Shown one piece after another: positions 12,584 through 38,498 of a stretch of DNA of 64,000 nucleotides. The number at the start of each line of letters is the position of its first letter. Position 1 is the first letter of the stretch. Position numbers and translations under genes: made by a program. The notes beneath the pieces were generated by a model. It was not told the DNA's origin and did not search any database. It saw only the letters and a list, made by a program, of their open reading frames with translations. This DNA is from Vibrio sp. YMD68. GTDB taxonomy: Bacteria > Pseudomonadota > Gammaproteobacteria > Enterobacterales > Vibrionaceae. Where the stretch lies: contig NZ_CP124613.1 in NCBI RefSeq assembly GCF_029958905.1, positions 1,178,001 through 1,242,000 on the forward strand. The letters run 5' to 3'.

Positions 12584-12587
12584 TTTA

Positions 12588-15500: not shown

Positions 15501-17948
15501 AGGGAAGCCAAAGTGTGGCATCTCTTTATCTGCTAACTGTGATGCGGATATTTTGTTGATTTCACCTGGGAAATAGGTGTTATGCCCATCGGTGTTCTGG
15601 GGGTTATTGTCGGTGAACCATAAGTCGCCCAATCTAGGATCCCAGTCAAATCCGACGGTATTTCGAATACCATCTGCAATTTGTTTTACATCGAGGGTCT
15701 GTAAATCGATCGCGAGTATTGATCCGTATTTGACCTCTTCTTCGATCACACAGATGTTGCACGGAGAGCCAATAGAAACGTATAGGTTCTCATCATTATT
15801 ATCAAAAGTGTTAAACTTGAGCGTATGCTTCTGGTGCCAATATAATCCCACTGGCTCTAGCGGGAAGTTGTCGTCACCCGCGGGTAAATCCATCAGCTTT
15901 TCAGGCTCTGACGGTTGACCTAGATTAGACGCGACGTTTTTGATGCGAAACAGTTCGGCTGACGTAGCAAAATAGAGGTCGCCGTTTTTGAACGCAACAC
16001 CATGAGGTTCAACTAAGCCACTGGCGACAATGACCGGATCCCCAGCTAAACCGGTACGATAGTCGTAAGGAATAGCGTAAATTTTGTTACCTCTTGCGCC
16101 ATTCTCTTCGGATATAGCCGATGACCCAACGTACAAATAGCCGTCACCCCAGGTCATTTGACGCGCTTGAAATACGCCATCAATGATAGTGCTAACTTCG
16201 ACGCCATCAATAGTCGAGAGTTTTTCTAAGTCAACACTTGGTTTAACGCGAAATGCCAGTGTCATTGGGCCTTCGTCTGTCACCGCTATCACTCGCGGTA
16301 CGTTTATTGGTTGGTAGTCATCTTCAAATTCTACCCAAACTTGGTACTCATCTGGCGCCAAATCTATAATTTGTTGGTCACCCTGAGCTGTCATCTCAAA
16401 GCGTTGACTCTCTCCAGTTGTTAGAGAGGTTAGTACAACCTCGTAGGTAGAGGTACTCGGAATACCGAGGCCACCTTGATCCATCTCGATGACGATAGAA
16501 CCTGGTTCTTGTTGCTCTAACTCTGCAAGTGCATAAACTTGAACGGTATCCTTTGATGTTGTTTCGCCGTCGCTCACGGCTAATTCAAATGAATAATGGG
16601 ATTCTTGTGATAAACCCGGGATAGAGAAGGTGGCCACCGCTGAATCTGCATTGTTCAATGATACTTCATCACCGGATAGCTGACGCCATTGGTAAGTGAG
16701 TTCGTCACCCTCTGCATCTTGTGAACCCGCGCCATCAAGACGCACGGTAGAAGCTGGGGATTGAACTTCTTGGTCGGTTCCTGCATCCGCAGTTGGTGGG
16801 GTATTTTCTACCACCGCAGCTAAGCCTGTTACTGTTATTTGATCTTGAGACGATGCCTCACCATCATCAACAGTCAGTTGGAAGGCATAGTCGGTATCCT
16901 CCGTCAGTTCAGGTAACGCAAAGGTCGCTTTTGGTTGTTTCGGGTTTTGCAACGTCACCGAAGGGCCCGACACTTGCTGCCAGTGGTAACTCAGAACATC
17001 ACCGTCCTCATCTTGCGAACCCGCGCCATCAAGACTTACCGAAGAATGTGGAGACTGAACTTTTAGGTCAGCGCCTGCGTTCGCAGTGGGTGGCGTATTC
17101 TCAACCACTACGGCTAACCCTTTGACCGTTACCTGATCTTTGGACGATGCCTCACCATCGTCTACGGTCAGTTGGAAGGTATAGTCGGTATCCTTAGCTA
17201 GTTCAGGCATCACGAATGTTGCTTGGGCTTGCTGTGAATTTTTTAGCGACACCGTTGGGCCAGACACTTGCTGCCAGCGATAAACGAGTGGGTCGCCATC
17301 TGCATCTTGTGAACCAGAGCCATCAAGACTGACCGAGGAACGCGGAGACTGAATATTTAGATCAGCGCCTGCGTTCGCAGTAGGTGGCGTATTCTCAACC
17401 ACTACGGCTAACCCTTTGACCGTTACCTGATCTTTGGACGATGCCTCACCATCGTCTACGGTCAGTTGGAAGGTATAATCGGTATCCTTGGCTAGTTCAG
17501 GCATAACGAATGTTGCTTGGGCTTGCTGTGAATTTTTTAGCGACACCGTTGGGCCAGACACTTGCTGCCAGCGATAAATGAGTGGGTCGCCATCTGCATC
17601 CTGTGAACCAGAGCCATCAAGACTGACCGAGGAACGCGGAGACTGAATATTTAGATCAGCGCCTGCATTTGCAATCGGAGCCTGGTTGTCTTGTTCCGCC
17701 CCACACTCACTAGAATCCGGAATGGGCAACCAGGGGTCATTTCCCCATCCCGCCTGACTTGAATTCAACGCTCCTAATGGATTGGGCTCGTTGTACGACC
17801 CAGCCCACCATTTTGATTTAAATAACATTTGCTCATGACACACCTGAACGCCACCTGAGTAACTTTTCTTTTCCCACTCAGGTGCGGCGGTGGCCAATGT
17901 GGAATACGTACCTGCTATCAGTACACATATTGGAACAATTCGCTTCAC
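12588..17948 (-). CDS. Multidomain DUF1592/PKD/propeller/cytochrome protein with chitin-binding modules
   Basis: A 1786-residue protein starting at GTG, with GGAG about 10 bases upstream and a Sec signal ending ATAAPE. Domains in order: a CBM5/12-like module (about 25-78; KSKWWAGSYNEPN), four PKD/K319L-like domains of about 98 residues (86-473), a spacer, a six-bladed SMP30/sorbosone-dehydrogenase-like propeller (about 575-965; VGFDWDPRLGDLWFTDN), two Ig-like domains, a heme motif CSGCH (about 1169), DUF1587, a second CBM5/12 (about 1331-1366; EVYRANWWTQGNPP), DUF1595, DUF1592, DUF1588 with a second CxxCH (CWVCH, about 1661), and DUF1585. It is probably a secreted chitin-attached oxidoreductase or electron carrier. 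The divergent neighbour is a chitinase with the same CBM type. The exact reaction is unknown. Confidence 0.88.
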   Translation of the reverse strand: MKRIVPICVLIAGTYSTLATAAPEWEKKSYSGGVQVCHEQMLFKSKWWAGSYNEPNPLGALNSSQAGWGNDPWLPIPDSSECGAEQDNQAPIANAGADLNIQSPRSSVSLDGSGSQDADGDPLIYRWQQVSGPTVSLKNSQQAQATFVMPELAKDTDYTFQLTVDDGEASSKDQVTVKGLAVVVENTPPTANAGADLNIQSPRSSVSLDGSGSQDADGDPLVYRWQQVSGPTVSLKNSQQAQATFVMPELAKDTDYTFQLTVDDGEASSKDQVTVKGLAVVVENTPPTANAGADLKVQSPHSSVSLDGAGSQDEDGDVLSYHWQQVSGPSVTLQNPKQPKATFALPELTEDTDYAFQLTVDDGEASSQDQITVTGLAAVVENTPPTADAGTDQEVQSPASTVRLDGAGSQDAEGDELTYQWRQLSGDEVSLNNADSAVATFSIPGLSQESHYSFELAVSDGETTSKDTVQVYALAELEQQEPGSIVIEMDQGGLGIPSTSTYEVVLTSLTTGESQRFEMTAQGDQQIIDLAPDEYQVWVEFEDDYQPINVPRVIAVTDEGPMTLAFRVKPSVDLEKLSTIDGVEVSTIIDGVFQARQMTWGDGYLYVGSSAISEENGARGNKIYAIPYDYRTGLAGDPVIVASGLVEPHGVAFKNGDLYFATSAELFRIKNVASNLGQPSEPEKLMDLPAGDDNFPLEPVGLYWHQKHTLKFNTFDNNDENLYVSIGSPCNICVIEEEVKYGSILAIDLQTLDVKQIADGIRNTVGFDWDPRLGDLWFTDNNPQNTDGHNTYFPGEINKISASQLADKEMPHFGFPYVSGVDTLSITEEQENGTSVYTGGYDYLPPGAIYSDILIEDIDPAHYQAPEFELEAGSAPLGLTFWQPDGITPTNGQSSFVYATHGPGDGKRAGYELRIMTLDSEGKPIFDRSLITGWKQPEGISGKPVEMLVMPDNSLLVSDDAGNTLYRLQYNPTSEGRIELSPTKGEITDTDTLVEATLTDSDGVSRRLFMSLSSGGYTIDHLEYGDYTLVIPTHEGLEPTESVYQITVNEQQPLGEVSWSYEDDSGDEKPLGTVTVNAPGAPSNSAPTILLEMEAAEGGTVYIDSEWGETTTAEMNIGQYTVDFPYTGTAIPSPKQQDVNLSASGATLNWTYTEYDNDEDYFNAVMEGECSGCHNGGNFAPDLSEGPSTGLIENYYDNPNIIADKIAEMTDMPGVTCDSTCQETLTRYLEDDLWGDALPNIVDSAEVYGSRHLRLLGQSEYINTVNDLFNVEVEKSLLPLDDKEKEGSLYGNAGQLGYLSSDKMNSYLNAAVYIQDNMDIYALSQCKSGGGSVPEWQASQVYVADDKVVDGGEVYRANWWTQGNPPKENSAPYGQPWTYVEDYEAGDPDCLENWYWETAERMFKRPLTDTDKALYPASDIELSLAKILVSPHFLYRREGGNLNDEGNYHLNAYELANVISYTVVGSVPDEELWSAAKDDSLIRSDVMAQQIDRLLSTPQAYEQFANFMMQTLEFDEERVVVDRDGMSSDVGEAMLDEFTTYIRETVFGEEMGRFSDLMAYENTYVNQVLANHYGFNGSFNSGFKQAAIPAERGTGLLSLGAIAVAYSTDEQTRLIPRGKMVQHSLLGWEQAIPSGAAPDDIVNDTSTKDFWTQATGPSTECWVCHEKMNDVGFAYDVLDKTGRYRAYEDYTSLHGEVFNNVALETQGTLIDVDGTDTQFDDLEDISLYLANSEQAKQAFVKNYLSYTLGEVSARFSPLYPEYASFEQFKQLMKDLLMSTTVIEREE
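17071..17680 (-). repeat. Near-identical tandem PKD-coding repeats
   Basis: Two adjacent units of 294 bases (98 codons) encoding the first two PKD domains are almost identical at DNA level; anchor sequences recur at 17071, 17365 and 17659. The encoded domains differ by about one residue. The third and fourth PKD units are more diverged, so this is a recent duplication. Confidence 0.85.
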
Positions 17949-20425: not shown

Positions 20426-21214
20426 TTATCTTGAAGCTTCAATACTGGCCTGAGTAAACGCAGGATAACCAGAAGGCCGAGCTTTGTTCAAATTGACTCG
20501 GAAATTGCTGTCTTTCAGCGGAATGGTCGCAGAGCCATAGTTAAAGCTGTTGAGCCTTTTCCTCATTGATTGATTAGATATTCCCTCTCCTGTTAATTGA
20601 TACCAACTGGTGATCGTCGGCGTTACCCAATAGCGGTAATAGTTTTCAGCAAGTTCTGTAGATTTGGCGAACCGAAAGGCGTGTGTTAGGAGCCCTTCTT
20701 TATGGTAAACAAACTTGATGTGATCACCTTGCATTGGCAACTGCCCAAGCGGTTTGGTCGTTAAGTTGCCGTGAGCGCTATAACTGCCGTGAGTAATAGC
20801 GCCATTTTTAGTCCACACAGCAACATACTCCCAATCATGGCGATGGCCAATACCATCCAACCAACGAAGTGCTTGATCTTTTTCAAAGTACAGAGAATAA
20901 AAATGCCCACAATACGAGTCCCCCTGACTTTCTATGCAAGCATAGCGATGCAATGTATTAGAAGTATCGAGGAAGCCTACATCTCGGCAGTTTTTATCCA
21001 ATGGCCCAGAATTATCTAGCCCTGAGTTTTGTTCTCCGCTGCGGCTTACACCAGCTGCCGGATAACAGCCATCCTCGTCAAAATCAAATACGGGCTCTTG
21101 GCCCAGAATCGTTATATCTGACGGTAAAGCTTCAGCCAATCTGCTAAAACCTTCTGCATTCACGTCAAAAGCCACTGAAATTATGGCTAAAGTACATAGA
21201 ATCTCATTTTTCAT
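20426..21214 (-). CDS. NPP1/NLP-family necrosis-inducing cytolysin
   Basis: A 262-residue secreted protein with a Sec signal ending VNAEG. It contains the family's hallmark heptapeptide GHRHDWE followed by YVAVW (about residues 121-132), which lines the metal-dependent membrane-damaging site of Nep1-like proteins. Pairs of cysteines around CRDVGFL, CIESQGDSYCG resemble the family's disulphides. Known family members are secreted toxins of fungi, oomycetes and some bacteria that damage target membranes; a haemolysin of Vibrio pommerensis has been described as NLP-like. The gene is monocistronic, minus strand, and lies just downstream of the split Rhs module, which may be coincidental. Confidence 0.9.
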   Translation of the reverse strand: MKNEILCTLAIISVAFDVNAEGFSRLAEALPSDITILGQEPVFDFDEDGCYPAAGVSRSGEQNSGLDNSGPLDKNCRDVGFLDTSNTLHRYACIESQGDSYCGHFYSLYFEKDQALRWLDGIGHRHDWEYVAVWTKNGAITHGSYSAHGNLTTKPLGQLPMQGDHIKFVYHKEGLLTHAFRFAKSTELAENYYRYWVTPTITSWYQLTGEGISNQSMRKRLNSFNYGSATIPLKDSNFRVNLNKARPSGYPAFTQASIEASR

Positions 21215-21418: not shown

Positions 21419-22960
21419 TTATTCTTCTCTTCCGTAGAATGCTTCTTCATGTAAGGGAAGATGTGCATTAAGCGCCCAACTGCCCTTATAACCTATACGA
21501 ACAGTTCTCAACCCCTCTTTTAAAAACTCTAGTTTTGTTCCTTTATTCGCCAATTGCTTACGATTCAGGCTGGCCATGGTGCCATGATTAAATACGGTCA
21601 TCGTCATCGACGCTTTATTCATTGTCGAATCTTGGCCGTAGTAACCGGCTACGGCCAAGTTAGTTGCTGTGCTTTCTAAGGCATTAACGCCTATCGAACT
21701 TAACCGCTCGACGGTATTAGATAAACTTTGCTTTTTATTACTGTTTGTTTTGAGCTTAACCCTATATGTGTAGCTCGTTTTCATCGATTCAAGATTATAT
21801 TTCCCTCTTGATTTCGCAACTTTTAAACTGGCTAATGGAGAACTTGCGAGAACAAGGGTATCTGCTATAGCCCCTAGCCAAAGAGCTGCTTGGGTTAGCT
21901 TAGATGCCGTTAAACTGTTGGATGAACCGATCCCACCGCCGGTTGCCGATACGATTTGTGAAGTCACCCCTAAAGACCCCGCAGCACGACCAAGCTGCCC
22001 AGCAACCTTAACAGCGGTTGTTGCGGTCGATGAAATTGGAAGCAGAGCGGCGGTGAAAAAAAATGCCGCGGCAAAAATGTTGTACGTAATGTTTTCAGCC
22101 AGTTGAGCGGTTTCATCACTGGCGCCTGAAGCCAGTGCTATCGCGCCAGCACTGGCCCTAAAACCCTCGGTTAAGCCTGAAGCCACCCCAGTATAAATGA
22201 TTGCCTTGGTCGCAATGGCTGTAAACGAACCCACACTGGCCGCAGTGGCACCTGTCGCACCCGCTAAGTAACTAGCAGACGCTGCATAAGCACCCGCAAT
22301 GCTGCCTGCATAAGACACTGCGCCTGTTACCGCCCCTGCTGCCGTAGAAATCGCCGAACTCACCGATGCTATTACTGAAGAAATGAACGCGATGATAGCG
22401 GCGATAATGCCGTGCCCCGATGGATCCGTGATTCCGATGGGATTATTCATCGCAAAAGCATAGCCATTCCCCCCACCGACTCCGAACGGCGAAGCATTAC
22501 GATCGTATTGGCAAAATCGCCGTAATACGGGATTGTACCAGCGATACCCTTGGCCTAATGGATATAACCCCGTAGATGGATCCATACGTTCCCCATGAAA
22601 ACCCAGCATATTCCTTTGCAAAATATTGGATTCGAATAACATCGATTGTTCGCTCGCTAGAGCGCTATTACCAGGTATAGGAAGCAGAGAACCACACATC
22701 AAAAGAATGCTATTGTGCAAGAAATCCCGTCGTGATATTTCTGAAGGTCGGCTGCCCAAATTCTTAATGTCGGTAACAACCCATTTATCCTGTTCAGAAC
22801 GAGTGATGATCGCATCCTTCTGTTGTTGACACTTTTTTAGTGGTTGACCATGCCGATCAACCAGACCATGGTCATTATTCGACATCCTGACTCCATTCTT
22901 ATCCACTACTTTAGGCTTGAGAATATGTCGAACAAGAGTATTTAGGTTATCTTCCATCAT
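21419..22960 (-). CDS. Tat-signal Rhs-core protein with variable C-terminus (module A)
   Basis: A 513-residue protein. The start at 22960 was chosen because GAGGG lies 8 bases upstream and longer frames overlap the preceding gene. A long N-region leads to a twin-arginine motif SRRDFLHNSILL (Arg 77-78) and a hydrophobic stretch ending NSALA. Residues of about 118-183 are an Rhs-associated core (LGFHGERMDPSTGLYPLGQG to ITDPSGHG). The remainder is a long Ala/Gly/Ser-rich hydrophobic region, possibly membrane-inserting, and a basic unique C-terminus (about 400-513). In ordinary Rhs/TcC proteins the core is fused to the YD-repeat shell; here that shell is the preceding gene, 22 bases upstream. No immunity-like gene follows. 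Confidence 0.85.
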   Translation of the reverse strand: MMEDNLNTLVRHILKPKVVDKNGVRMSNNDHGLVDRHGQPLKKCQQQKDAIITRSEQDKWVVTDIKNLGSRPSEISRRDFLHNSILLMCGSLLPIPGNSALASEQSMLFESNILQRNMLGFHGERMDPSTGLYPLGQGYRWYNPVLRRFCQYDRNASPFGVGGGNGYAFAMNNPIGITDPSGHGIIAAIIAFISSVIASVSSAISTAAGAVTGAVSYAGSIAGAYAASASYLAGATGATAASVGSFTAIATKAIIYTGVASGLTEGFRASAGAIALASGASDETAQLAENITYNIFAAAFFFTAALLPISSTATTAVKVAGQLGRAAGSLGVTSQIVSATGGGIGSSNSLTASKLTQAALWLGAIADTLVLASSPLASLKVAKSRGKYNLESMKTSYTYRVKLKTNSNKKQSLSNTVERLSSIGVNALESTATNLAVAGYYGQDSTMNKASMTMTVFNHGTMASLNRKQLANKGTKLEFLKEGLRTVRIGYKGSWALNAHLPLHEEAFYGREE

Positions 22961-22982
22961 GTTATTACCCTCTATATAAAAA

Positions 22983-25900
22983 CTAATTGATCGTTTTATA
23001 GCCAAATGGCAAGTAAATATAGTTTTTGTCTTCATATTCCCCGAAACTAATTTCTGAGAGTACGCTACCATTTTTATCAAGTGCGAAAAATTGATGAAGC
23101 ATAGAATTGTTACCATTGTACAAACGAAGTATGGGTTTATTTAAATAGCGAAGGTAGCTAGTACTTCCTTCTTGGCTGACTTCATTAATAAGTTGATCGC
23201 CTCGATATAGGTATGAGATTACACTCCCGTCACCTTCTTTACTGATTAGTTGCCCTTCTGCATTATAAGAATAGTTTGATATTACTTCATCTAATTCATC
23301 TTTCACTGATACTAGATGATCATCGTCATCATAAATATAAGATCGATTTTTTTCATCTACTATAATGTTTCCTCGTTCATCATATTCAACACTGATTGTA
23401 TTCATCTCTGGGTGGCTGTGTTCTATACTGGTTAATTGTGTAGGATCAGATAAATTATCGTAATGGTAGACTTCTATATCTTCACTTTCATCATTAAAAA
23501 TAGAGACAACAGTACTGATATTGTCAAAGCCGTCATAGGTGAAAGTTTGACTCTCAACTTCAAACCCATTAATGTTATTAGGGCGTTCCGACCCCGATAT
23601 ACTATAGCGTAAGAGGCGACTTTTTTCGTCGTAGCTGAATTCTTCTTTCTGTAAAACCACACCTTCTTTTGATTTTTCTTTTGAGATTATTCTATCCGCT
23701 AGATCAAATTCTGTTTTTAGGGAAAATAGGATATTTCCTGATTTTGTTATTATTCTATTTGTTTCTCTAGTGAAACAATCCCAATAGATATGGTGATCCA
23801 CTCGGTTAGTTACTCTTTCATCTAAGTCATGGCAAGACTGAGTGATTAACCTATTATATTTATCGTATTCAAAGTTAGTGACATGAATTTTATTTTTACT
23901 ATTTTTTTCTATTTCAATCAGGTTTTTTTTACTATCATAAGTGTAGCGTTCGATATTACCTAGGTAATCGGTATACGACAGTAAAACACCTAAAATAGAA
24001 TAAGTATATATTGATTCATAATGCGCACCATTTACTGTTCTTATTTCTTTAATAAGCCTTCCTTGCGAGTCATATTCATAGCTGTTTCTGCTATTTTCAT
24101 TCTCACTAGAAATGAGTTTACCTGTCACAGAGTCATACTCAAATTTGAGATGACTCAAGTTTGTGGATGCACTGGTATTTTTTTTCAGTAATGGATCATA
24201 ATCAAATGACCATATTTTTTGTTGCGCTGTAATGAGTTCGCTTGGATTGGTCTGACTGCCTGAGTATGAATAATGCGTTGTATTTCCTCCCTGTGTCTCA
24301 GAGGTGATCCTTTGTAACCCATCATAAACTCGCTCACCGACTACGGTATTGGACACACATATTTCAGTAATCAATGAATCTGTCGAATGCAAAGCGTATT
24401 TTAATGTTTTGACCGAGTTAGTTGGATCTTTAACCGAAAGGCTTCGCCCCAAATAATCGTAAGAATAATAGGAAGAATGCCCAAAAGGATCGGTTGCTTT
24501 GACGGTTTGGCCGTGACTATCGTAGAATCGTTGGCTAATCGAATCGAATTGACCGTCAGAGGTAAACCTCGATTCATTAACCGGTTTACCGTTGATATCA
24601 TATTGAATAATATCGTAAGACAGACCCTCTATTCCCGTTTTTGTCGTTAGTTGTACAGGATCGAACTTACTGAGTAATACGTTTCCATTAGGCATTACCG
24701 TGTGATCCAGTTCCCCAAATATATTGTAATAATATCGCGTGGTATATTCTATTGGCTCACTGTCATGCCAATCACGTTCAATTGAATATAAGACTCGACT
24801 TTCTACATCATAATGAGTTTCGCCAATGGTTCTGAAATTACCTGATTCATCCTCAGACAAATGGTAAACTTCTCGGCCCATGCCGTCATAAATAAATTTC
24901 TGTTGGTGCCCTTTGGAACCGGTGATCAAGAGACTGTTATTACCTTGCGTATAATCGTAATCAAACTTTTTAATGGCGCAGCGATCGGTCTCGGGTGCAA
25001 CCTCTATCATCGTATATTGACCATTTTCGTTGTAAGTATAACGAGTGGCCAAACCTTCGTGATCAACCTTGCTTATTAGGTTTCCAGAATAAATGTCTTG
25101 CGTTTCCATCCGTGTTGCTGACTTTCCATCGAACCCTTTCATGGTAATGTAAGAAATGCGCTCATGATTTATAAATTGGTAATCAAAAGAGATAGAACCA
25201 CAAGCGTTACCTTGCAGTGACACCAGTATGTTTGACACAAGCCCACATGAACCAGGAATAGATAAATCTTGAAAATATGAACTTGCCGTTGTTTCACCAT
25301 AAGAGGTACGAACTTCAGTTTCAACGATACATTCTTTGTCATTTAGGCTTGTGATCAATGCATATCGATACCTTTTCCAGACACTCTCTTCACCATATTC
25401 GGTACTGGCCGGTTGTGTTTCTGTTTTTTCTAAATAACAAATAAAACCATAAGGGTGTGGTGGGCAGTCACCACTTTTCCCTTCAACCGGGTAATAGTCT
25501 AATACGGTTTCGGTCCCATCTTTATCGCGCTCAAAAATACAGTTCCCGTAATCGTCGAATTTGTATTCCAAAACTTCAGAGCGTTGCTCTCCGTTATTGT
25601 AATACGTTGTTTTTTCCTTCTGTATATAAGAATAGTTATCAGGTTGTTCCTCTATACTTTTGTTGAGGTCGGCGAAATACTCGAGGTCAACTTCTTTATA
25701 AAGTGCGCTATCTCTAGTGTATGTTTCCGATTCAAGTAAATGATATTTATTATATGTCCTTTCAATGAGTAATGAACCATCGACGGTTTCCTTACTAGAA
25801 TACCTGTAATCTGATTCCGTTTTAAAAAGCATATCGACACCATCTTCCCATTTAAGATTACTTCCTCGACCAAGATAGTTCGTTAAAGAATATTCGTACT

Positions 25901-26774
25901 GACTCACTATATGAGGCTGATTCAAACCTGGTACAAGTGTATGAATTTTAACGAATGGAACTGATTTTATGCCTTTACTTCCCTTCGGAAGAAGGTGCCC
26001 TTTATAAGAGTAATCTACCCGCTCAATAAGTCCTGAGTGGTGTTCAACTTTTTTAATTAAATAATTGTTTAATTCATCAATATATTGATATTCAATCTTT
26101 GTGTTTAACTGACTGTTATTAACCATAGACATACTACTGAGTAATACACCATGGCCATGTGATCTCTTACTCAGTAAATAAGTTCGAGAATATCCTCCAC
26201 TCACATTTTCACTATTTATGACTGAATAATATTTATGACTCCAATGATCGATTGAAATTGAATGACCATATGAATCACTCACTTTGCTTAAAGAGTAGTT
26301 ACCATTAAAATATTGATAAGAATAATGTATTTCATGCCCTAGATTTGAAACAGTCTTAATCAATTTACCAGAGTCATAATCTATATAATCTATACTACTA
26401 TTTTTATAGACTACTTTTATCGTAGTATTCTTATTTACCAAGTATGCTCTAACATCTTTTGTTTTACGATGTGGCATAAAAAACTCGTTGGAATTATTGC
26501 TAAGTATAGTTTCAAAGCTTTTACCAGAGCCTAACGTTAGCCTTCGATTAATCTTGTTGTAACCAGGCATACTTAATGACCAACCTAAACCAAAACCTTC
26601 ATCATTGTGATTAAGGCAATTATGGCTAATAGATAGTTGAAAATTTGGCCCAGAAAGTCGATTTGAAAGCAATTCTCCCAGAGTAAAACTTATAGAATAA
26701 CTTCCTGTGCGAGGGTCTACACCAGAATTAACAAATTCTGAAAAATTAAATGCATTACTGACTATATCACTCAT
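22983..26774 (-). CDS. Rhs/YD-repeat shell protein lacking its core (module A)
   Basis: A 1263-residue protein (start at MSDIVSNAFN, GGTGG upstream; the ATG at 26789 lacks a ribosome site). The N-terminus NAFNFSEFVNSGVDPRTGSYS, split here by its motif, is typical of the Pseudomonas-like Rhs/TcC family, followed by GFGLGWSLSMPGY. The rest is dense YD repeats (for example YDSQGRLIKEIRT). It ends at YIYLPFGYKTIN, exactly where normal Rhs chains continue into LGFNGE and the core; that part is the next gene. No signal peptide is seen. It is exactly as long as its paralogue at 33525-37316. The likely role is a cocoon-like shell around the C-terminal partner (inferred from TcB/TcC structures). Confidence 0.88.
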   Translation of the reverse strand: MSDIVSNAFNFSEFVNSGVDPRTGSYSISFTLGELLSNRLSGPNFQLSISHNCLNHNDEGFGLGWSLSMPGYNKINRRLTLGSGKSFETILSNNSNEFFMPHRKTKDVRAYLVNKNTTIKVVYKNSSIDYIDYDSGKLIKTVSNLGHEIHYSYQYFNGNYSLSKVSDSYGHSISIDHWSHKYYSVINSENVSGGYSRTYLLSKRSHGHGVLLSSMSMVNNSQLNTKIEYQYIDELNNYLIKKVEHHSGLIERVDYSYKGHLLPKGSKGIKSVPFVKIHTLVPGLNQPHIVSQYEYSLTNYLGRGSNLKWEDGVDMLFKTESDYRYSSKETVDGSLLIERTYNKYHLLESETYTRDSALYKEVDLEYFADLNKSIEEQPDNYSYIQKEKTTYYNNGEQRSEVLEYKFDDYGNCIFERDKDGTETVLDYYPVEGKSGDCPPHPYGFICYLEKTETQPASTEYGEESVWKRYRYALITSLNDKECIVETEVRTSYGETTASSYFQDLSIPGSCGLVSNILVSLQGNACGSISFDYQFINHERISYITMKGFDGKSATRMETQDIYSGNLISKVDHEGLATRYTYNENGQYTMIEVAPETDRCAIKKFDYDYTQGNNSLLITGSKGHQQKFIYDGMGREVYHLSEDESGNFRTIGETHYDVESRVLYSIERDWHDSEPIEYTTRYYYNIFGELDHTVMPNGNVLLSKFDPVQLTTKTGIEGLSYDIIQYDINGKPVNESRFTSDGQFDSISQRFYDSHGQTVKATDPFGHSSYYSYDYLGRSLSVKDPTNSVKTLKYALHSTDSLITEICVSNTVVGERVYDGLQRITSETQGGNTTHYSYSGSQTNPSELITAQQKIWSFDYDPLLKKNTSASTNLSHLKFEYDSVTGKLISSENENSRNSYEYDSQGRLIKEIRTVNGAHYESIYTYSILGVLLSYTDYLGNIERYTYDSKKNLIEIEKNSKNKIHVTNFEYDKYNRLITQSCHDLDERVTNRVDHHIYWDCFTRETNRIITKSGNILFSLKTEFDLADRIISKEKSKEGVVLQKEEFSYDEKSRLLRYSISGSERPNNINGFEVESQTFTYDGFDNISTVVSIFNDESEDIEVYHYDNLSDPTQLTSIEHSHPEMNTISVEYDERGNIIVDEKNRSYIYDDDDHLVSVKDELDEVISNYSYNAEGQLISKEGDGSVISYLYRGDQLINEVSQEGSTSYLRYLNKPILRLYNGNNSMLHQFFALDKNGSVLSEISFGEYEDKNYIYLPFGYKTIN

Positions 26775-26973: not shown

Positions 26974-28143
26974 TCAAATTATTCTTCCAACAGAAATTCG
27001 ATGTTCCGTTCCCCACCTGTCGACTATGACTAATTCTGGATGCCGGTTTTTAATTTCTTCAAGTAATTTCTCAGATATTTTTTTTGAACAAGAGTCTGAA
27101 TTGGCACTTATGTAGACCCTTTCTGGGGGTAAGTAGCACCCATTATAAGAAGATTTGTATACACCTCCGTTTTCAACCCATATCGTGTCGTAGGTTGGCC
27201 CTTGCTTGTTATACGGGATAGATAAAACATTCAGAATGTGAGTTGAACCATTCACTAGCGCATTTAATTCTTCAGTTACAGATTTAATATTAATCTCCAG
27301 AAGTCGACCCAAAGTTAAATAATTAAAATATTGCGATTCAGGCATAGAGAAATGATATGTTTTATTATCCGACCAATAGACCGAAGTATCCAATCCGGCA
27401 AATTTTACTTGAGCACTGTTGTAAATTAATACTTGACGATTTTCCGGCGAGCTATCGATATAAATTGAATGGATTGTTCCTTCTAATCGAGCGGGTCCCA
27501 CTAACGCTTTTAGGTTAGTGAAGTGCCGCAGATCATTTTTTTCTTCTAAGTCCTCCTCGTCTATAACCTGGGTGGATGAAAATTGGTTGCTAGGGATAGT
27601 ATTAGGTGCAATTGCTTCCACCGTAATAGTTGGCTCACTGTATTCGCAACTTGTCTCGATGTATCCGCTTTTCAGCGTAACTTCAGCACATATATCAATC
27701 GTTTGAATCACTTCTGACGATAAATAAATAGTTTGTGTATGTTTATGAGTGGAAGTGACATTAATATTCGACATAATCCGATGTGATTGGTATGTATAAC
27801 TCGAACCAAAGGGATTCCCTTGCGTTGTTTTTAAAAATTCATTGGACTGAACGTACTTTCCCTGACTGATATAATACTCGTCTGTTTCTCCCAAGGGGGA
27901 TCGGTATAGCCAGCCTAGATCCTGAATATCAGTTTCATCTTGTTCACGGATTAATTTAATCCAATCAACTTCCTCTCCTTCTTCAAGCTCAACCGATATA
28001 AATATTTCTATCTGATTTTTTCCATTGGAAAATATTTGACCCTGGTCAGAACCAGATAGACTGATGGCAATTTCTTTCACTGAATAATCTGTGGAAAAAG
28101 CCTGTGGAGACAAAAATATGACTAATAAAATTAAAGATTTCAT
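26974..28143 (-). CDS. Secreted beta-rich protein, first gene of module A
   Basis: A 389-residue protein with a Sec signal (MKSLILLVIFLSPQAFSTDYS) and AAGG about 8 bases before the start. No known domain was recognised. It aligns by eye with the product at 37464-38498 over its first half (IFSNGKNQIEIFISV against IYANGNMQVRLNVLY, and QTIYLSSEVIQTIDICAEV against EQFYLSTNSSNADILLCVEL), and both end in a WGT/YGN...I.V/IKR-like strand. It precedes the Rhs shell by about 200 bases in the same direction. Function unknown; because it is exported by Sec it may be an adhesin or a delivery partner. Confidence 0.7.
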   Translation of the reverse strand: MKSLILLVIFLSPQAFSTDYSVKEIAISLSGSDQGQIFSNGKNQIEIFISVELEEGEEVDWIKLIREQDETDIQDLGWLYRSPLGETDEYYISQGKYVQSNEFLKTTQGNPFGSSYTYQSHRIMSNINVTSTHKHTQTIYLSSEVIQTIDICAEVTLKSGYIETSCEYSEPTITVEAIAPNTIPSNQFSSTQVIDEEDLEEKNDLRHFTNLKALVGPARLEGTIHSIYIDSSPENRQVLIYNSAQVKFAGLDTSVYWSDNKTYHFSMPESQYFNYLTLGRLLEINIKSVTEELNALVNGSTHILNVLSIPYNKQGPTYDTIWVENGGVYKSSYNGCYLPPERVYISANSDSCSKKISEKLLEEIKNRHPELVIVDRWGTEHRISVGRII

Positions 28144-28219: not shown

Positions 28220-28669
28220 CTAGTCCACTTCTGGGACCACTATTCGGACCGAAGACACTTTTCCATTTAACCCGTTGTCTTCATAATAAGTGACGCTCAC
28301 TGATTCATCTGAGTAACTCTGTTCAAAACTCCCTATGATATAGTCGGTAAAAATATCTTCCTTCACCTTAATAACTATGTAGTCATCATTTGTTGATAGT
28401 TTTGGGTCATCATAGATTCGGATGCTAGTCCCTTCTGGTACATCTCTTAGTGTTAACGACCTCGCTTCATCATTGTCGCAACCGTAATCATCCTTTTTAA
28501 AATTGACCGTTTCATGAACGCCAGGAAGAACAACTAAATTACAAACTGTATGTTGCGTTGCTTGACTCCCTTCATAAAAAACAAATTCAGGGACTATGGA
28601 AGCATTGGCATTAAGCGTCAATATTGTTGAACACGTGATCAGCATTACTTGTTTAGAGATATATTTCAT
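28220..28669 (-). CDS. Small secreted beta/gamma-crystallin-like protein
   Basis: A 149-residue protein with a Sec signal (LNANAS) and AAGGG 8 bases before the ATG. After it lie FYEGSQATQ, CDNDEARSLTL, IYDDP and NGLNGKVSSVRI, a pattern that suggests a beta/gamma-crystallin-like fold as in some calcium-binding bacterial proteins. It is upstream of and in line with module A (77-base gap). Module B has no equivalent, so it may be an accessory. Function unknown. Confidence 0.6.
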   Translation of the reverse strand: MKYISKQVMLITCSTILTLNANASIVPEFVFYEGSQATQHTVCNLVVLPGVHETVNFKKDDYGCDNDEARSLTLRDVPEGTSIRIYDDPKLSTNDDYIVIKVKEDIFTDYIIGSFEQSYSDESVSVTYYEDNGLNGKVSSVRIVVPEVD

Positions 28670-32234: not shown

Positions 32235-33521
32235 TTAAAAGCCGAGCAAATGACTGTCTAGATCGTGATACCGCTTTACATTGTTCCACACCCGTTCTGA
32301 TACACCATATTGCTCCCATAGTGGCTGCTTATTAAAGTGCTTCAGGTGATTTTGAGCATTCAAAGTATAGACTGAGGTAATACCCGTTAAAAATGACACG
32401 GTATTCCATTGTCTATTTTCATCACTTCCAGGTTCGGTAAATAATACCGCTACAAGGCCTGTCACATGAGAAAGGTCAGTAAATCGCCCCGAGATATAGC
32501 CCCCTGGATCAGATTTCAAATTTTTTATCGGATTTAAACTTTTTCCACTTAAAGCGCCAGAAATAGAGCTACCATAATGGAAGAATCGCATGGCTAAATC
32601 ACTGTTGTAACTGTTCTTTCCTAGATGCCCCTTGGTATTAAAAGCAATACCGGCGGATGCACTTGAAATACCACTAGCAATTCCTCCACCCGTAAACACA
32701 GCTTCCCTTAAAGTGATGCACTTATCATTAAATTTTTGATTCCTTTCCCAATGTGACATTTTTCTAAAAACTCTACCTTTGGAGATTGTTTTTCCTAATT
32801 GTGCCGCATTTTTCAAACCATACCCTACGCCTGCAATCGCCAAAGAAAAACCCAGCACCTTGCCAAATATTTGTAAGCCCTTTGAGGCGTCGGGCTGCAT
32901 TGACAACGCGGTTACCGTGGAAATAGGTACAGAAACCAACTCGGCCACTGACGATTTAACGATAGCTAAACCCAACTGTGCACCAGCTTTCGGCGCAGAA
33001 GCCGCTATCCCAATCCCACCAGTAATAAAACCAATCGCAGCTCCAATCGCCACCTGTTTCCAGTCAAATTTATGATCAGGGTTGATGGCCATCTGAATGC
33101 CCTCGGCCGCAACAGAAACTGCAGCGCCGACTACAGCACCGACGATGGCACCGATTAAGATGCTTAGTAGGGCAAAGTGACCACTTGGATCACGCTGATT
33201 AACAGGGTCGCCGAGGCAATAAGCATAACCATTAGTCCCCCCTTTCCCAAAAGGACTCATGGAGTCATACCCATGGAACCGCATCAGTTTAGGGTTGTAA
33301 ACACGACACCCTTTGCCCAAGTGATAGTTACCCGTAACAGGGTCTTGGCGTTCACCATTAAACCCTAACGGATTGTGTTTAATCGCCAAATGGTCAGATG
33401 AAGGCGTTGCAGACAAGGCAACCCCTGGTATTGTCATACCGGATACGGCCAACGTGGATATTCCCCCTGCCTGTTTGAGTAATCGCCTACGATTTGGATT
33501 GAAAATAGTTTTAGGTTGCAT
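32235..33521 (-). CDS. Tat-signal Rhs-core protein with variable C-terminus (module B)
   Basis: A 428-residue protein starting 3 bases after the preceding Rhs-shell stop, with a GGAGAGGG site overlapping that stop. A twin-arginine signal NRRRLLKQAGGIST (Arg 11-13) runs through a hydrophobic stretch to VALSATP. Residues of about 52-115 are an Rhs-associated core: PLGFNGERQDPVTGNYHLGKG to DPVNQRDPSGHF. The rest is a glycine/alanine-rich region (IGAIVGAVVGAAVS, IGAAIGFITGGIGIAAS) and a C-terminus differing from module A (RYHDLDSHLLGF). It lacks an adjacent immunity gene; next downstream is the porin terminator. Toxin activity is inferred only. Confidence 0.86.
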   Translation of the reverse strand: MQPKTIFNPNRRRLLKQAGGISTLAVSGMTIPGVALSATPSSDHLAIKHNPLGFNGERQDPVTGNYHLGKGCRVYNPKLMRFHGYDSMSPFGKGGTNGYAYCLGDPVNQRDPSGHFALLSILIGAIVGAVVGAAVSVAAEGIQMAINPDHKFDWKQVAIGAAIGFITGGIGIAASAPKAGAQLGLAIVKSSVAELVSVPISTVTALSMQPDASKGLQIFGKVLGFSLAIAGVGYGLKNAAQLGKTISKGRVFRKMSHWERNQKFNDKCITLREAVFTGGGIASGISSASAGIAFNTKGHLGKNSYNSDLAMRFFHYGSSISGALSGKSLNPIKNLKSDPGGYISGRFTDLSHVTGLVAVLFTEPGSDENRQWNTVSFLTGITSVYTLNAQNHLKHFNKQPLWEQYGVSERVWNNVKRYHDLDSHLLGF

Positions 33522-33524
33522 AAT

Positions 33525-36500
33525 TCAGCCCTCTCCATAAGGTGTGTATTTTCGCGAGGTTTTCTCTCTAGATTGCCCGTCGGTACTCGTGAAAGTTTCC
33601 AGTACGCTATCTTGACTGTTACCCAGACTAAACTGGTGTATCTCTTCATCTGGTGACGAGACGCTACGAGACGACAAGCCTGAGGCGATATTGTGAAAGC
33701 TGCTATGGGTTGCCCCACTTTTTTCATTCACTAATTGACCGTTGAGGTAAAATAAGTGAATCAGATTCTCTTCAACACTTTGAGCGACTACTCGTCCGCC
33801 CGCATCATATCGATACTGAGATAGCACGTCTCCGTCTTCTTCCACCGAGGTCATCTGATTTAACGCGTTATAGTTGAAGCTTCGTCCTTGCTCATCATTA
33901 AGCAGATTTCCAGCTGCATCATAAGAAAAACTGACACTGCTTGGGTAGCTTACGTGCGTGTTGGTGAGGCTTTCTAAACGCTGTGGATTCAATGTCGCAT
34001 AGTAAAAGCCAGCAACATTAGACGTACCATCATCAAAGACACTGCGTGCTTTCGTTATATTGCCAAAAACATCATGCACAAAACGTTGTTTGCGGATCGT
34101 ATTACCGTAATCATCTACAGGCGCGTTGGGGCCAGTCACTTTGTAACGCTCTAAACGCGCTAAATCATCGTAGAAAAAGGTCTCGTGCGTTGAATCGCTC
34201 CCCTGTGTGAAGGTACGAGAATCAAGTAACATCCGCGGATTAAACACCTGCTCGATAGAAAAGACCACACTTTTATTAAAAGTCGCCTTTCGCCAAATCT
34301 CCATACCAAAACCATTGAACTCAAGTTCAACCTCAGCCTTATCTTCTCCTCGTAACGTCGTGTATTTATAGGGCCGGCTAAACGCATCGTATTCAAATGT
34401 AGTCACTGTACTTGTGTCTAAAAAAACTTCTTCAGAGCGAGCAAGTCGGCCAAGATTATCGAAATGATACGTGCTGGTATTACCAAAAAAATCGCTTTTC
34501 TCGAGTAGCTTACCTTGCTGTGAATACCGAAAGCTCGCCTGGCGCTCCATGCCGTCAATATCCACAGTTTCAGTTAGCACTCTTCCTTGAGAATCTCGAG
34601 TGACGCCCCTCTTGCCAGAGTAATTTTGGTTAGAAAGCGGTAGCGCGGACTTCGTATCATACGTATGCGCACTTCCTAGCTGGCTTTCGCCTTCGACTGA
34701 AATAGTGGTGGGCACTCGCAAGTATTTATTGTTACTAAAATTCACTTGGTCACCGCTGGCGGTGTTAATTGACTTAGCCATTGACGATGTGCCCGAATAG
34801 GAATAATCCACCGTTCCACTGTTTAAGGAGGTTTGATGTTTTAAACGCATTAGGCCATCAAACTCTTGCTGCCCTTGAAGAACATTATTAACAAAAACCT
34901 GACAGGGAATATCGGCGGTAGTGAATTCTGGGTACGTATAACTTTCGCAAATACTTTGCCCATCAATGGTACGTGTTACCTCGACAAGCCTGTCGATATT
35001 ATCATAACGGTAGTCAATGACCCGCCCTTCGGTATCCGTCACGCTGAGCAGATTACCGTACCCATCGTAGCGATAATCGGTACTGGCAATCAAAGAGCCA
35101 TCGGCATCATAAGTTTGCTTATTTAGCTCACGTCCTGAAATATCGAACGTCGTGTTTTCGACCATCAAAGGCCTTTCCCCTTGGCCTGACTGATGTTCAT
35201 AGCGAGTCGTTAGCCTCACCGGGTTCTGAGTAATCAGCTCAAGTCGCCCATCTGGGTGAGTAACCTGAGAGACGTCACCATTAATGTCATATTGATAAAC
35301 CGTCGTCAGTGGTAATGCGATACCATCAAGCCAATCTGTTTCTGTCTTTAACGTCATCATGCCAAAATGATCATACTTACAAGACACAACGACTTTCGGA
35401 ACTTTACCGGGCTGCCCTTGAACCACCTCTAATAACTTACCGGCATTATCAAACCGCTTCTCCACCGTATTGCCCTTAGCATCGACCTGTTTCGTGCTAT
35501 TAACCCCATCCCCAACGCTGTAGCTATACGTTTGAATCACTTCAAAATCAGTGTCTGGCGCCGTCACTGCAGCCACTTTTCGACCCAAGGAATCATAACT
35601 AAATTGGCTCACAACGCCTTCTTCATCAACAAGCTCGATAGCTTGCCCCCAAAAGTAGTCAACGGTTGCCGATTCGGTGACCGTAAGATTGTCGTGGCTC
35701 GTAAACGATGTTGTGGTCTTTAACCCATCATTTAAGAACTGATACTCAACGTCCGTCTTTATCTCATAACCATTAAACATGTTTTTCTGGCGTCGAACTT
35801 GGCCATAAGTCAAAGGATTTTCTGGGTTTTGGTAATAATCAAACGTCGTTGACTGGAATTCATCAGTTTGTGTGCTAAGGACAACAAAAACCTCATTGCT
35901 ATTATCTAAGCGTTTTAACGATCGGTAAGTCATCGTCATAGTTCGAGTTGTTGCGGTGTCATTAGGTACCAAGGTTTCACTTTTTACAAAGGCTACCATT
36001 CCAAATGGATGAGCTGGGCAAGCCCCCTTTGCACCCTGGGATGGATAGTAACGTCTTATCACCTTAGAGCCATCAGCATCTTGTTCAAAAATTGGGTTAG
36101 CGAAATCATCATAGTCGTAATGTTTGCTGAAAGTTCGAGATTGATCCTCATGGTAATGAGTCGTTGCTTGCGACTTTACCAGGCTATAGATAGCAGGCTG
36201 AACTTCAATGTTGGCATTTAAATCTGCAAAGTACTCGAACGATTCTTTTCGATACAATTCACCGTCATCATAATATTTAGCCTCATCTTGCAAGTGGTAC
36301 TTGTTGTATTTACGTACTACTTTTTTTAAGCCGTTAACTATCTCTGTGGTGGTATATGAGTAATTTGCAGAAGATTTAAACAGCGTATCTTCTCCTGCGA
36401 TCCAAACTTTTTCACTGGCAAAACCAAGATAGTTTTTATCTGAATACTCGTATTCTACCTGTGTAACAGGCAAGCTCCCATCTGTTGAAGGGATAATAGT

Positions 36501-37316
36501 ATGAGTTTGAATAAATGGAATTGTTGAAAAAGGGGCTCCTGAGGGAAGGGAATGGCCATTATCAAGATAAACCATCTCTTCAATTAGCCCAGAGGAGTGA
36601 GTGACCGTCTCAACCACATCATAATTTGAGCTCGCTATATAACGATAGCTAAATTCAATGGGAGGTAAATTCTCATTAAGCTTTATGCTAGATAGACGGC
36701 GATATATTCCATTGCCACTTTTCTTTAATCTCATCGACTGAAATATCGTATCATTGAGCTTGTGAACGATATCGACTTTAGTTCTCTCTTTACTCCAGTC
36801 AAAAAGCATCTTACGACCATCTTTGTCATAAATTCGACGTATCCTTCCCGTCCAAGTATCATAGTCGAAATAAATCGATTTCCCTTGCTGTGATACTACC
36901 TTATTTAATCGACCAGAAGACTCATCCAAATACTCACAGAGGCCCTCTTTATTCATCACCTTTAATTCTTTACTGTCATTTAAGTATGTTATTTTTATAT
37001 CTTTAACCCTTCTATAGGGTATTTCGTATTCATTTCCACCCCAGGGTTTATATATTCGAAAAGATTGACCCGTTGAAAGCGATATTTTTCCTGAGGCTTT
37101 ATCGTATTGACTAAGAGAAATAGACCAACCTCGACCAAACCCCATATCTTCTGAGCTTCCCGCACTATATGACAAAAAAACCGGAAAATTAGGCCCTACA
37201 TTTTTGTGCGAGAAAAATTCCCCCAGAGAAACCCGAATAGAATACATTCCAGTTCTCACATCAACAGCTGAACTTAGGCCTTCAACAAAATTAATTGCAT
37301 TAGATTCGATACTCAT
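33525..37316 (-). CDS. Rhs/YD-repeat shell protein lacking its core (module B)
   Basis: A 1263-residue protein from MSIESNAINF at 37316, with AAGGAG 6 bases upstream; the longest frame (37358) is rejected. NAINFVEGLSSAVDVRTGMYS, then GFGRGWSISLSQY, matches the start of the module A paralogue. YD repeats fill the chain (for example YDGYGNLLSVTDTEGRVIDY). It ends at KYTPYGEG, exactly before the place where single-chain Rhs proteins carry LGFNGE, which starts the next gene. No signal peptide was found. The two shells have exactly equal length, supporting the chosen starts. Confidence 0.88.
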   Translation of the reverse strand: MSIESNAINFVEGLSSAVDVRTGMYSIRVSLGEFFSHKNVGPNFPVFLSYSAGSSEDMGFGRGWSISLSQYDKASGKISLSTGQSFRIYKPWGGNEYEIPYRRVKDIKITYLNDSKELKVMNKEGLCEYLDESSGRLNKVVSQQGKSIYFDYDTWTGRIRRIYDKDGRKMLFDWSKERTKVDIVHKLNDTIFQSMRLKKSGNGIYRRLSSIKLNENLPPIEFSYRYIASSNYDVVETVTHSSGLIEEMVYLDNGHSLPSGAPFSTIPFIQTHTIIPSTDGSLPVTQVEYEYSDKNYLGFASEKVWIAGEDTLFKSSANYSYTTTEIVNGLKKVVRKYNKYHLQDEAKYYDDGELYRKESFEYFADLNANIEVQPAIYSLVKSQATTHYHEDQSRTFSKHYDYDDFANPIFEQDADGSKVIRRYYPSQGAKGACPAHPFGMVAFVKSETLVPNDTATTRTMTMTYRSLKRLDNSNEVFVVLSTQTDEFQSTTFDYYQNPENPLTYGQVRRQKNMFNGYEIKTDVEYQFLNDGLKTTTSFTSHDNLTVTESATVDYFWGQAIELVDEEGVVSQFSYDSLGRKVAAVTAPDTDFEVIQTYSYSVGDGVNSTKQVDAKGNTVEKRFDNAGKLLEVVQGQPGKVPKVVVSCKYDHFGMMTLKTETDWLDGIALPLTTVYQYDINGDVSQVTHPDGRLELITQNPVRLTTRYEHQSGQGERPLMVENTTFDISGRELNKQTYDADGSLIASTDYRYDGYGNLLSVTDTEGRVIDYRYDNIDRLVEVTRTIDGQSICESYTYPEFTTADIPCQVFVNNVLQGQQEFDGLMRLKHQTSLNSGTVDYSYSGTSSMAKSINTASGDQVNFSNNKYLRVPTTISVEGESQLGSAHTYDTKSALPLSNQNYSGKRGVTRDSQGRVLTETVDIDGMERQASFRYSQQGKLLEKSDFFGNTSTYHFDNLGRLARSEEVFLDTSTVTTFEYDAFSRPYKYTTLRGEDKAEVELEFNGFGMEIWRKATFNKSVVFSIEQVFNPRMLLDSRTFTQGSDSTHETFFYDDLARLERYKVTGPNAPVDDYGNTIRKQRFVHDVFGNITKARSVFDDGTSNVAGFYYATLNPQRLESLTNTHVSYPSSVSFSYDAAGNLLNDEQGRSFNYNALNQMTSVEEDGDVLSQYRYDAGGRVVAQSVEENLIHLFYLNGQLVNEKSGATHSSFHNIASGLSSRSVSSPDEEIHQFSLGNSQDSVLETFTSTDGQSREKTSRKYTPYGEG

Positions 37317-37463
37317 AATTACTCCTTTTTTATAATATAAAAAATAATTAATAAACATTAATCTAGGATAATAAAGTATTAGGGCATAGGATAATTGATA
37401 TATAAACCTAGACCCTAGAGTTGATTTTTTAGAAAGACTTATTTATCCCGAGGTAAGATTAAT

Positions 37464-38498
37464 TTAGTCAAACCCATAATAAATATTACCCCACCCATCT
37501 TTCCATGGGTTTACTCGTTTTATGTTTATAGTGCCACTGTTACCATAGTTATCTCTAAATGTGACAGTCCGACAATATTTTATTTTATCTTTAGGGTTTG
37601 TTATAACTTCAGTACCAAAGGAAGGATAACCATTAAACCATGCAAAAGTGATAGACTCTGTTGTATTAATCTTTGCCTTTTTCCATCTTATAGACTCCCA
37701 ATTTCTACTATTTTCACGCTTGTACTGGAAGTTTTGATCAGCTATACCTTGATTTGGCTCATATAAAAAAAGGGCGGAATGCGCAAGTAATCCAGGATTA
37801 CTGTCTTTTTCTGAAGCGTAAGATGCAATTAAATTTCTTGGCCGTTGTTTAAGAGAACAACCATTTACATCATGAATTCCTCTGTTATTTTTCAGTGTAA
37901 ATCTTTCTTCATATATAATTAACTTAGGGTGTGAAAATTGAGAAAATACTTCCGTAGTCTCTCGATCAAGGTCATCAAATGTGTAATGCATTTCCGGTAT
38001 AGTAGTAACATGGACAAGTCCATTATTTTTGTCTCCATTGCAAGTCGATTCAGTGTATTCATCTCCGTTAACGTTTGAAAAATTTAACTCTACACATAAT
38101 AAAATATCTGCATTACTGCTGTTCGTAGATAAGTAAAACTGTTCAGTCGTAACATCTTGATTATCGTTACGTAGAGTAGCAGAAGATTGGTATTTCCTAT
38201 AAGTTTCTATATTACCGTCATACCCATTGTAAATTTGGCTCACTTTCCAATCTTGTGGTAAAAAATTATTTGTATAAGCTTGTTTTATCACGATTTGAGT
38301 AACTTCATATCCAGATGGAACATCTCTGTATAAAACATTTAATCTCACCTGCATATTTCCATTCGCGTAGATAGTTGCAGAAGACGAACCAGATTCCGTT
38401 ATAAATATTATGGAAGGATCGGCGGCGTGTGATATCGAAGATATCAAGGATATAACTATAAATAACGTTATAATCTTAAGTTTTTTTAAAAACGACAT
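37464..38498 (-). CDS. Secreted beta-rich protein, first gene of module B
   Basis: A 344-residue protein with a Sec signal ending SHAADPS and GGAG about 7 bases before the start. It has no recognised domain. Its first half aligns by eye with the 26974-28143 product and both share a terminal strand (RDNYGNSGTINIKRVNP against DRWGTEHRISVGRI). It lies about 150 bases upstream of the module B Rhs shell. The repeated position makes it part of the conserved module. Function unknown. Confidence 0.7.
   Translation of the reverse strand: MSFLKKLKIITLFIVISLISSISHAADPSIIFITESGSSSATIYANGNMQVRLNVLYRDVPSGYEVTQIVIKQAYTNNFLPQDWKVSQIYNGYDGNIETYRKYQSSATLRNDNQDVTTEQFYLSTNSSNADILLCVELNFSNVNGDEYTESTCNGDKNNGLVHVTTIPEMHYTFDDLDRETTEVFSQFSHPKLIIYEERFTLKNNRGIHDVNGCSLKQRPRNLIASYASEKDSNPGLLAHSALFLYEPNQGIADQNFQYKRENSRNWESIRWKKAKINTTESITFAWFNGYPSFGTEVITNPKDKIKYCRTVTFRDNYGNSGTINIKRVNPWKDGWGNIYYGFD

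Follow-up and report, generated by a model that had tools for sequence, protein, structure and literature searches.

How do Rhs toxins leave the cell when no parts of the type VI secretion system (T6SS) accompany them? To our knowledge the question is open, and a locus of Vibrio sp. YMD68 raises it anew. In a stretch of 64,000 nucleotides (contig NZ_CP124613.1, positions 1,178,001 to 1,242,000; hereafter the window, in whose own numbering positions are given) lie two gene modules, A and B, both on the minus strand, in which an Rhs toxin is encoded in two pieces: a shell of YD repeats that lacks the Rhs core, and a separate core gene with a predicted signal for twin-arginine translocation (Tat). 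A third gene next to each shell, the partner, carries a Sec-like signal and is a feature beyond those named by the first-pass annotation of this DNA. The union of a split toxin with a Tat tag suggests, as far as gene content can tell, a new shipping route by which a packaged toxin might leave the cell.

In module A, the shell is a core-less Rhs/YD-repeat protein of 1263 residues (22983..26774, ATG at 26774) in which we saw no export signal and which stops at YLPFGYKTIN. The next gene (21419..22960, 513 residues) encodes the Rhs core and a C-terminal domain, and the core (opening with LGFHGE; domain at 22412..22606, with the motif PxxxxDPSGH) sits behind a Tat-like signal (SRRDFLHNSILLMCGSLLPIPGNSALA, 22655..22735, cleavage site from pattern only), just as the first-pass annotation had described. 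This gene begins 22 nucleotides past the shell, with GAGGG ahead of ATGATG at 22960. The Shine-Dalgarno context makes 22960 the most likely translation start, which would place the arginine pair some 77 residues from the N-terminus; counted from the alternative start at 22885, the distance would be about 52. Module B is split at the same point, again as first annotated. Its shell, also of 1263 residues (33525..37316; the open reading frame opens at 37358, and the ATG preceded by a Shine-Dalgarno site is at 37316), ends in KYTPYGEG. The ATG of the core gene (32235..33521, 428 residues, Rhs core plus C-terminal domain) lies at 33521, 3 nucleotides past the shell stop codon (GGC TGA ATT ATG), and its Shine-Dalgarno site sits within the last codons of the shell. 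Core B starts with NRRRLLKQAGG...ALSA (Tat-like signal at 33408..33521, with the arginines as residues 11-12 and ALSA around residue 38; cleavage again judged from pattern only), followed by LGFNGE and the core domain (33174..33368). The two frames of this module correspond to 144.5 and 45.5 kDa. Both shells break off shortly beyond the Y-x-P-[YF]-G strand, the last one of the shell. Each module thus encodes a signal-less shell (N-termini inspected by eye) beside a signal-bearing core gene, which is the arrangement of a Tat hitchhiker and its carrier.

The profile matches agree with this anatomy. The Rhs core model TIGR03696 of NCBIfam matches both window cores (1.7e-16 and 1.7e-17) only from position 13 of its 76, so that the split cuts through the Rhs core domain in both modules; a third match in the genome, in a 1398-residue frame on contig C3, spans model positions 1-75. 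This other Rhs core of the genome (G000:C3:47565-47792; loci L001 and L167) was not picked up by our Tat-core model. Where shell and core share one chain, the Y-x-PYG strand of the shell runs on into the core over 8-13 residues in all 26 rows, which bears out what the first-pass annotation says of such proteins. Rhs toxins carry shell and core on one chain; here they are separate genes, in both modules and at all 46 distinct shell loci described below, the window's two included. The window shells match the RHS/YD-repeat models PF05593 (3.7e-32 and 3.5e-29) and TIGR01643, with a sub-threshold match to DUF6802 in shell B. Pfam gave only RHS_repeat and this DUF6802 match in them, with no TcB-type domain and no PAAR, the mark of T6SS effectors; the genome's five PAAR matches are all on contig C2, and the window is on C1. 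The TcA model PF18276 had no match in the genome, and control genomes likewise gave none. TatC and the type II secretin GspD are both encoded in the genome. In an alignment of 47 cores, the arginines of the Tat-type motif (R11 and R12), as well as D86, P106, D111 and G114, are invariant, the motif PxxxxDPxG being present; going by that motif, D86 and D111 would form the aspartyl dyad of self-cleavage. Behind the core, the C-terminal domains vary among family members (Tox-HDC, Scabin-like, ART-type, C80, Stv).

The split is not peculiar to this genome. Across Vibrionaceae, Moritella and Psychromonas, 46 distinct shells lack a core of their own and have one of the Tat type close by, though several of these shells are near-copies of each other (47 rows from neighbourhoods and named genome contigs, of which L138 is a cut copy of L050). 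The core gene overlaps the shell or follows within 164 nucleotides in 42 of the 46, so the search that the first-pass annotation had proposed, for Tat-signal core genes directly after core-less shells, was successful. It lies 1.5 kb downstream in one (L137) and upstream, by 21-84 nucleotides, in three (L017, L032, L050). The shells of these three reversed loci still end in YMPYGFRA, YMPYGLRM and YSAYGSTDDI; two more loci (L132, L136) have the reversed order with a shell incomplete in the stretch examined. Since shells end at the same point even with the core gene upstream, the split cannot be a sequencing frameshift. The alternative that the first-pass annotation itself had named, homologues that are always one chain and a split made by frameshift, therefore fails. 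Assembly error and pseudogene formation are ruled out by the same reversed loci, together with the two modules of the window and the many genomes.

Among 329 Vibrionaceae genomes, 33 match the core alignment. Of these, 29 have a core of the Tat type and the other four have single-chain or longer frames. A sample at the level of the order gave matches in 13 of 394 genomes, with Tat-type cores in families f1, f2 and f12, and a class-level sample of 369 genomes gave a match in the window itself only. Core counts from this search are lower bounds, because the best five candidates per genome were scored. Among the matches listed for a query with core B, a Microbulbifer protein (P0043) also has a Tat-like start. 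The three-gene Tat module also occurs on two plasmids typed as conjugative, from Vibrio cyclitrophicus (L181) and from a Vibrio parahaemolyticus shrimp isolate (L183), where its genes are annotated merely as hypothetical protein, "RHS repeat protein" or "RHS repeat-associated core domain-containing protein".

The Tat-type signal is a property of the separate cores of these bacteria. We called signal peptides with hydropathy rules of our own and starts picked by their Shine-Dalgarno sites. A strict rule (motif, hydropathy and no charge) holds for 53 of the 57 distinct short core proteins that come from the Vibrionaceae, Moritella and Psychromonas loci and for none of 58 short cores from other taxa, the taxon groups being set by our list of loci; of the four misses, L166__5 is unrelated and the other three carry SRR[LD]FLKQ. 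The rate is above the chance level: 13 of 875 other open reading frames of the same loci (at least 200 residues, first 80 examined) satisfy the rule. A family search with residues 1-130 of core B returned 169 proteins, and in the best 120 of these a simpler rule, motif plus hydrophobic stretch, finds a Tat-like start in 75 of the best 84 (the window's own protein included) and in 2 of the next 36. Several of the nine misses within the best 84 are truncated or start directly at the core. The TAT_signal model of Pfam matches 4 of the 47 core rows, and the arginine pair stands 36-50 residues ahead of the core in all 47. Tat targeting of the cores is likely.

The third gene follows the same division. 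Partner A (26974..28143, 389 residues) belongs to the family encoded upstream of single-chain Rhs shells, and partner B (37464..38498, 344 residues) has the motifs [FY][AS]NG and DxYGN; both have Sec-like signals. Family members, mostly of 340-440 residues, lie upstream and sometimes downstream of the shell, and in an alignment of 25 rows they share [FY][AS]NG towards the N-terminal end and DxYG[NT] towards the C-terminal end, at split and single-chain loci alike. With starts chosen by Shine-Dalgarno score and a signal defined as an uncharged hydrophobic stretch near the N-terminus, 38 of 39 partners at Tat-type loci have a Sec-like signal under this rule (the 39th, L123, has one by eye), and none of 18 partners at single-chain loci does, counting rows with a recognisable partner (8 of 47 Tat and 8 of 26 single-chain rows had none). 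The partner of L014 has two possible starts. A single genome (G035) holds both forms, the split one (L155) with both signals and the single-chain one (L164) with neither. At L171 and L175, two or three Sec-signal partner-like genes stand in a row ahead of one shell.

Comparison with relatives separates the split from the signals. The single-chain Rhs proteins of Xenorhabdus, Providencia, Pseudomonas and others, most of about 1570-1730 residues (loci between L014 and L075, L163, L164), share with the split form the shell type (a VDPRTG start in most, YD repeats, the Y-x-PYG end), the kind of core and the upstream partner family, but they are one chain, have no Tat signal and go with partners that lack a Sec signal (18 of 18). 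Splitting as such also occurs outside the Tat form. In IMG/VR, a contig predicted to be viral (L184) has a core-less shell followed by one or more separate core genes and no Tat signal, and so have a Photorhabdus locus (L036) and the Pantoea stewartii plasmid pDSJ09 (L182). The viral contig is split at the same point as the Tat form (shell end YTPYGYRTDVSAGDSVAEVSEGNRDE, of the YTPYG type; core start MNDIVLGFNGE), and the other two are split further upstream. On pDSJ09, three consecutive core genes come after one shell gene. The partners of L036 (start uncertain) and L184 have no obvious signal, and the Sec signal of the partner therefore tracks the Tat signal, not the splitting.

The split also seems to have been reversed. 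Three fused proteins (P0133, P0134, P0136), with fragments P0135 and P0147, have about 47-52% identity with shell B (for P0133 the comparison took in the whole shell), have a linker of about 20-30 residues without a Tat signal, and nest inside the Tat clade where tested; they are apparent re-fusions of the split form. On our shell tree, a quick one with several long branches from which L138 (cut) and the fragments L020 and L052 were omitted, the states Tat and single-chain require two changes, the second being these fused relatives. Their partner gene, which would provide a second contrast between Tat and partner signals, was not found, P0133 not having been located among viral contigs, and no close fused form occurred among 299 genomes sampled from the phylum.

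Cores and shells are not always paired one to one. One shell is followed by two Tat-cores in Moritella (L008/L169) and at L115, and Tat-cores outnumber shells 5:1, 5:3 and 3:2 in three genomes (G076, G254 and G252, the core numbers being lower bounds). At least one shell is present in 28 of 29 Tat-core genomes; this search took 29 of the 33 matching genomes and omitted four with no Tat-type core frame listed (G027, G038, G218, G248). If several cores can serve one shell, the warheads would be exchangeable by swapping a small gene. We saw no small open reading frame common downstream of the cores (by eye, frames of at least 90 residues), a search that a smaller immunity gene could escape; the lack of a shared immunity-like gene would fit a non-bacterial target. 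In genome G667 (L177-L180), several short core proteins open at or near the core itself (MNNTMLGF, for example); they have no Tat signal, and no shell lies in the stretches examined.

We propose that these modules encode a two-chain Rhs toxin in which the core plugs the shell in trans, with Tat exporting the complex, the shell as hitchhiker, and a Sec-exported partner; we give this reading about an even chance. In the cytoplasm, the separate core would insert into the shell and help to close the cage, as the in trans equivalent of a covalently attached core. The toxin would be held within the closed cage, where the aspartyl protease motif would free it. The Tat signal of the core would then take the assembled complex across the inner membrane, where signal peptidase would cut it off, and the complex would meet the partner in the periplasm, with release by type II secretion or lysis. 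Several cores may serve one shell. The parts of this proposal are not equally secure. Gene anatomy and conservation of the split are observed, and assembly, export and toxicity are read from them. Assembly of shell and core from two chains is likely, and the chances that the shell is exported along with the core are about even. No signal was seen, by eye, on the shell N-termini examined, so a shell that leaves by this route must ride on the Tat signal of the core, as PaoB and PaoC are described to do on PaoA (PMC4273604). The full version, in which the cage is loaded and closed in trans and the whole cocoon of about 185-190 kDa is carried through Tat by its plug to join the partner in the periplasm, is tentative, possible but open to doubt.

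The proposal would resolve a difficulty of toxin export. Tat needs folded cargo, yet a toxin that has folded in the cytoplasm endangers the cell that makes it, and a closed cage would remove this obstacle. It would also make the modules a T6SS-independent export route for Rhs toxins and one of the largest Tat cargoes, with several exported warheads, exchangeable for one another, to a single shell. Should Tat export the shell as well, the complex is a natural closed cargo on which to test the Tat size limit. The loci suit such work, because the signals in the sequence name the route, Tat in the case of the plug and Sec in that of the partner, and because relatives that have neither signal, some single-chain and some split, are natural controls.

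Several observations weigh against this proposal. Before processing, the complex would have about 190 kDa, above the "up to 150 kDa" stated for Tat (PMC6708511) and the 135 kDa given for PaoABC (PMC4273604). Cysteine content is the same in both groups of shells (median 7.6 per 1000 residues in 46 Tat-split shells and 7.7 in 23 single-chain ones, p = 0.51; L138, L020, L052 and L165 omitted), and hence there is no sign that the shell has adapted to the periplasm. As described in PMC8765631, the region that seals RhsA comprises 14 repeats. The core that the second chain brings here, about 65 residues, is smaller, and the shell would have to retain part of the seal. The n-region of core A is unusually long, KR takes the place of RR in some relatives (L170, L172, L181), and the C-termini of both window cores match no toxin domain in Pfam or NCBIfam. 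Some Tat-cores have no shell in the roughly 10 kb examined (L114, L116, L118-L120, L125, L127), and in one Tat-core genome (G208) no shell was found. Finally, the co-occurrence of Tat and partner signals amounts to one independent contrast on the shell tree, a number with which this test can give no significance.

What else could these genes do? The core-toxin may cross by Tat by itself, with the shell remaining in the cytoplasm as a chaperone that keeps the toxin safe until export. The absence of a signal on the shells and their unchanged cysteine content agree with this, and a core of about 45 kDa is well below the stated Tat limit (PMC6708511). We nevertheless consider it unlikely, because the C-terminal region of Rhs proteins, as described for RhsA (PMC8765631), seals the shell from inside, so that release would need the cage to reopen, and because the partner, which accompanies single-chain shells too, is Sec-tagged in Tat loci, which suggests that its binding partner leaves as well. 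Export of the two proteins by separate ways, the core by Tat and the shell by lysis or another route, with assembly outside, would account for the Tat-cores that have no shell in the stretch examined and for a gene order that can be reversed. It would also send the toxin across folded, as Tat takes its cargo (PMC6708511), and unshielded by the shell. Exported alarmone synthetases, another class of toxins, have no Tat signals, and PMC12691689 names as the likely reason that folded domains would be toxic in the cytoplasm. The presence of shells in nearly every Tat-core genome searched also argues against separate exits, which we regard as improbable.

The remaining alternatives concern the core gene itself. 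Its signal might stay uncleaved and anchor the core, perhaps with the shell, to the inner membrane on the periplasmic side. A strict A-x-A site is present in just 21 of the 47 rows and a hydrophobic region follows the core (13 of 47 rows match a Gly-zipper model at E <=0.01, the match of core B falling below the curated cut-off), but a looser cleavage-type site, small-x-A/G, occurs 17-36 residues after the arginines in all 47, though that pattern is permissive; we give such an anchor little credence. It is less probable still that the separate cores are silent or orphan cassettes, a reservoir for recombination with no working two-chain product. Polymorphic toxin systems are known to include orphan modules (PMC11067744), some of the present loci have tandem or orphan cores, and the close single-chain relatives P0133, P0134 and P0136 exist. 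Against it, both window cores have a Shine-Dalgarno site, an ATG start and a Tat-type signal, and the 46 distinct shells without a core of their own would be coreless unless the separate core were used. A frameshift or decay of a single-chain toxin, for which the existence of single-chain relatives might speak, has a negligible probability: besides the repeated and reversible arrangement described above, the signal of about 40 residues is not present in the single chains examined.

Other genes of the window may be mentioned here. Directly downstream of core A (20426-21214) is a gene for a secreted protein of the NPP1 type (necrosis-inducing; Pfam PF05630, 2.4e-43), and a similar 262-residue neighbour follows an A-type module at L133. 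Upstream of partner A (28220-28669) is a protein of 149 residues with a signal-like start and no match in Pfam or NCBIfam. Further away (11363-17948), a 1786-residue protein with a CSGCHNGG motif and PKD-like repeats is encoded beside a 413-residue protein with a Tat-like signal of its own (VSRRSFLKASVFAG); this pair is unrelated to the Rhs modules.

The modules share features with known systems. In the Yen-Tc toxin complex (Tc), as described in PMC11067744, the YenB/YenC cage is likewise made of two chains and has self-cleavage, YenC proteins are separately encoded, including at distant loci, and exchangeable, and TcC is packaged in trans. The N-terminal domain of TcC has about 680 residues, whereas the second chain here contributes a core of about 65, and the window shells, unlike TcB, match no Tc domain. 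A large Tc survey (PMC7861908), in the sections on which we draw, counted an RHS core only beside TcA/TcB genes and reports no TcC in its EnteroBase Vibrio set; with that requirement it would miss these loci. The T6SS effectors RhsA and TseI (PMC8765631, PMC7170923) share the YD-repeat shell, the sealing C-terminal region and PxxxxDPxG, and in RhsA the conserved C-terminal region is reported to spiral into the cocoon and seal one end, with an aspartyl dyad freeing the toxin inside (PMC8765631). They are single chains, the N-terminus of RhsA has a PAAR domain and a plug, where the window shells have no PAAR, and the residue after DPxG, H in the cores studied here, is W, L or F in these effectors. 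On the side of export, PaoABC and HybOC (PMC4273604) also pair one Tat-signal subunit with a signal-less subunit encoded together; PaoABC is a cofactor-loaded enzyme, whereas here the cargo would be a toxin cage. Transport by Tat and then by type II secretion occurs in Pseudomonas aeruginosa (PMC4899797). The literature searched, which covered neither preprints nor most subscription papers, gave no description of Tat-signal Rhs cores. Rhs shells and cores, Tc cages, orphan C proteins and Tat hitchhiking are thus already known; what these loci add is the union of a core-less shell with a Tat-signal plug and a Sec-signal partner.

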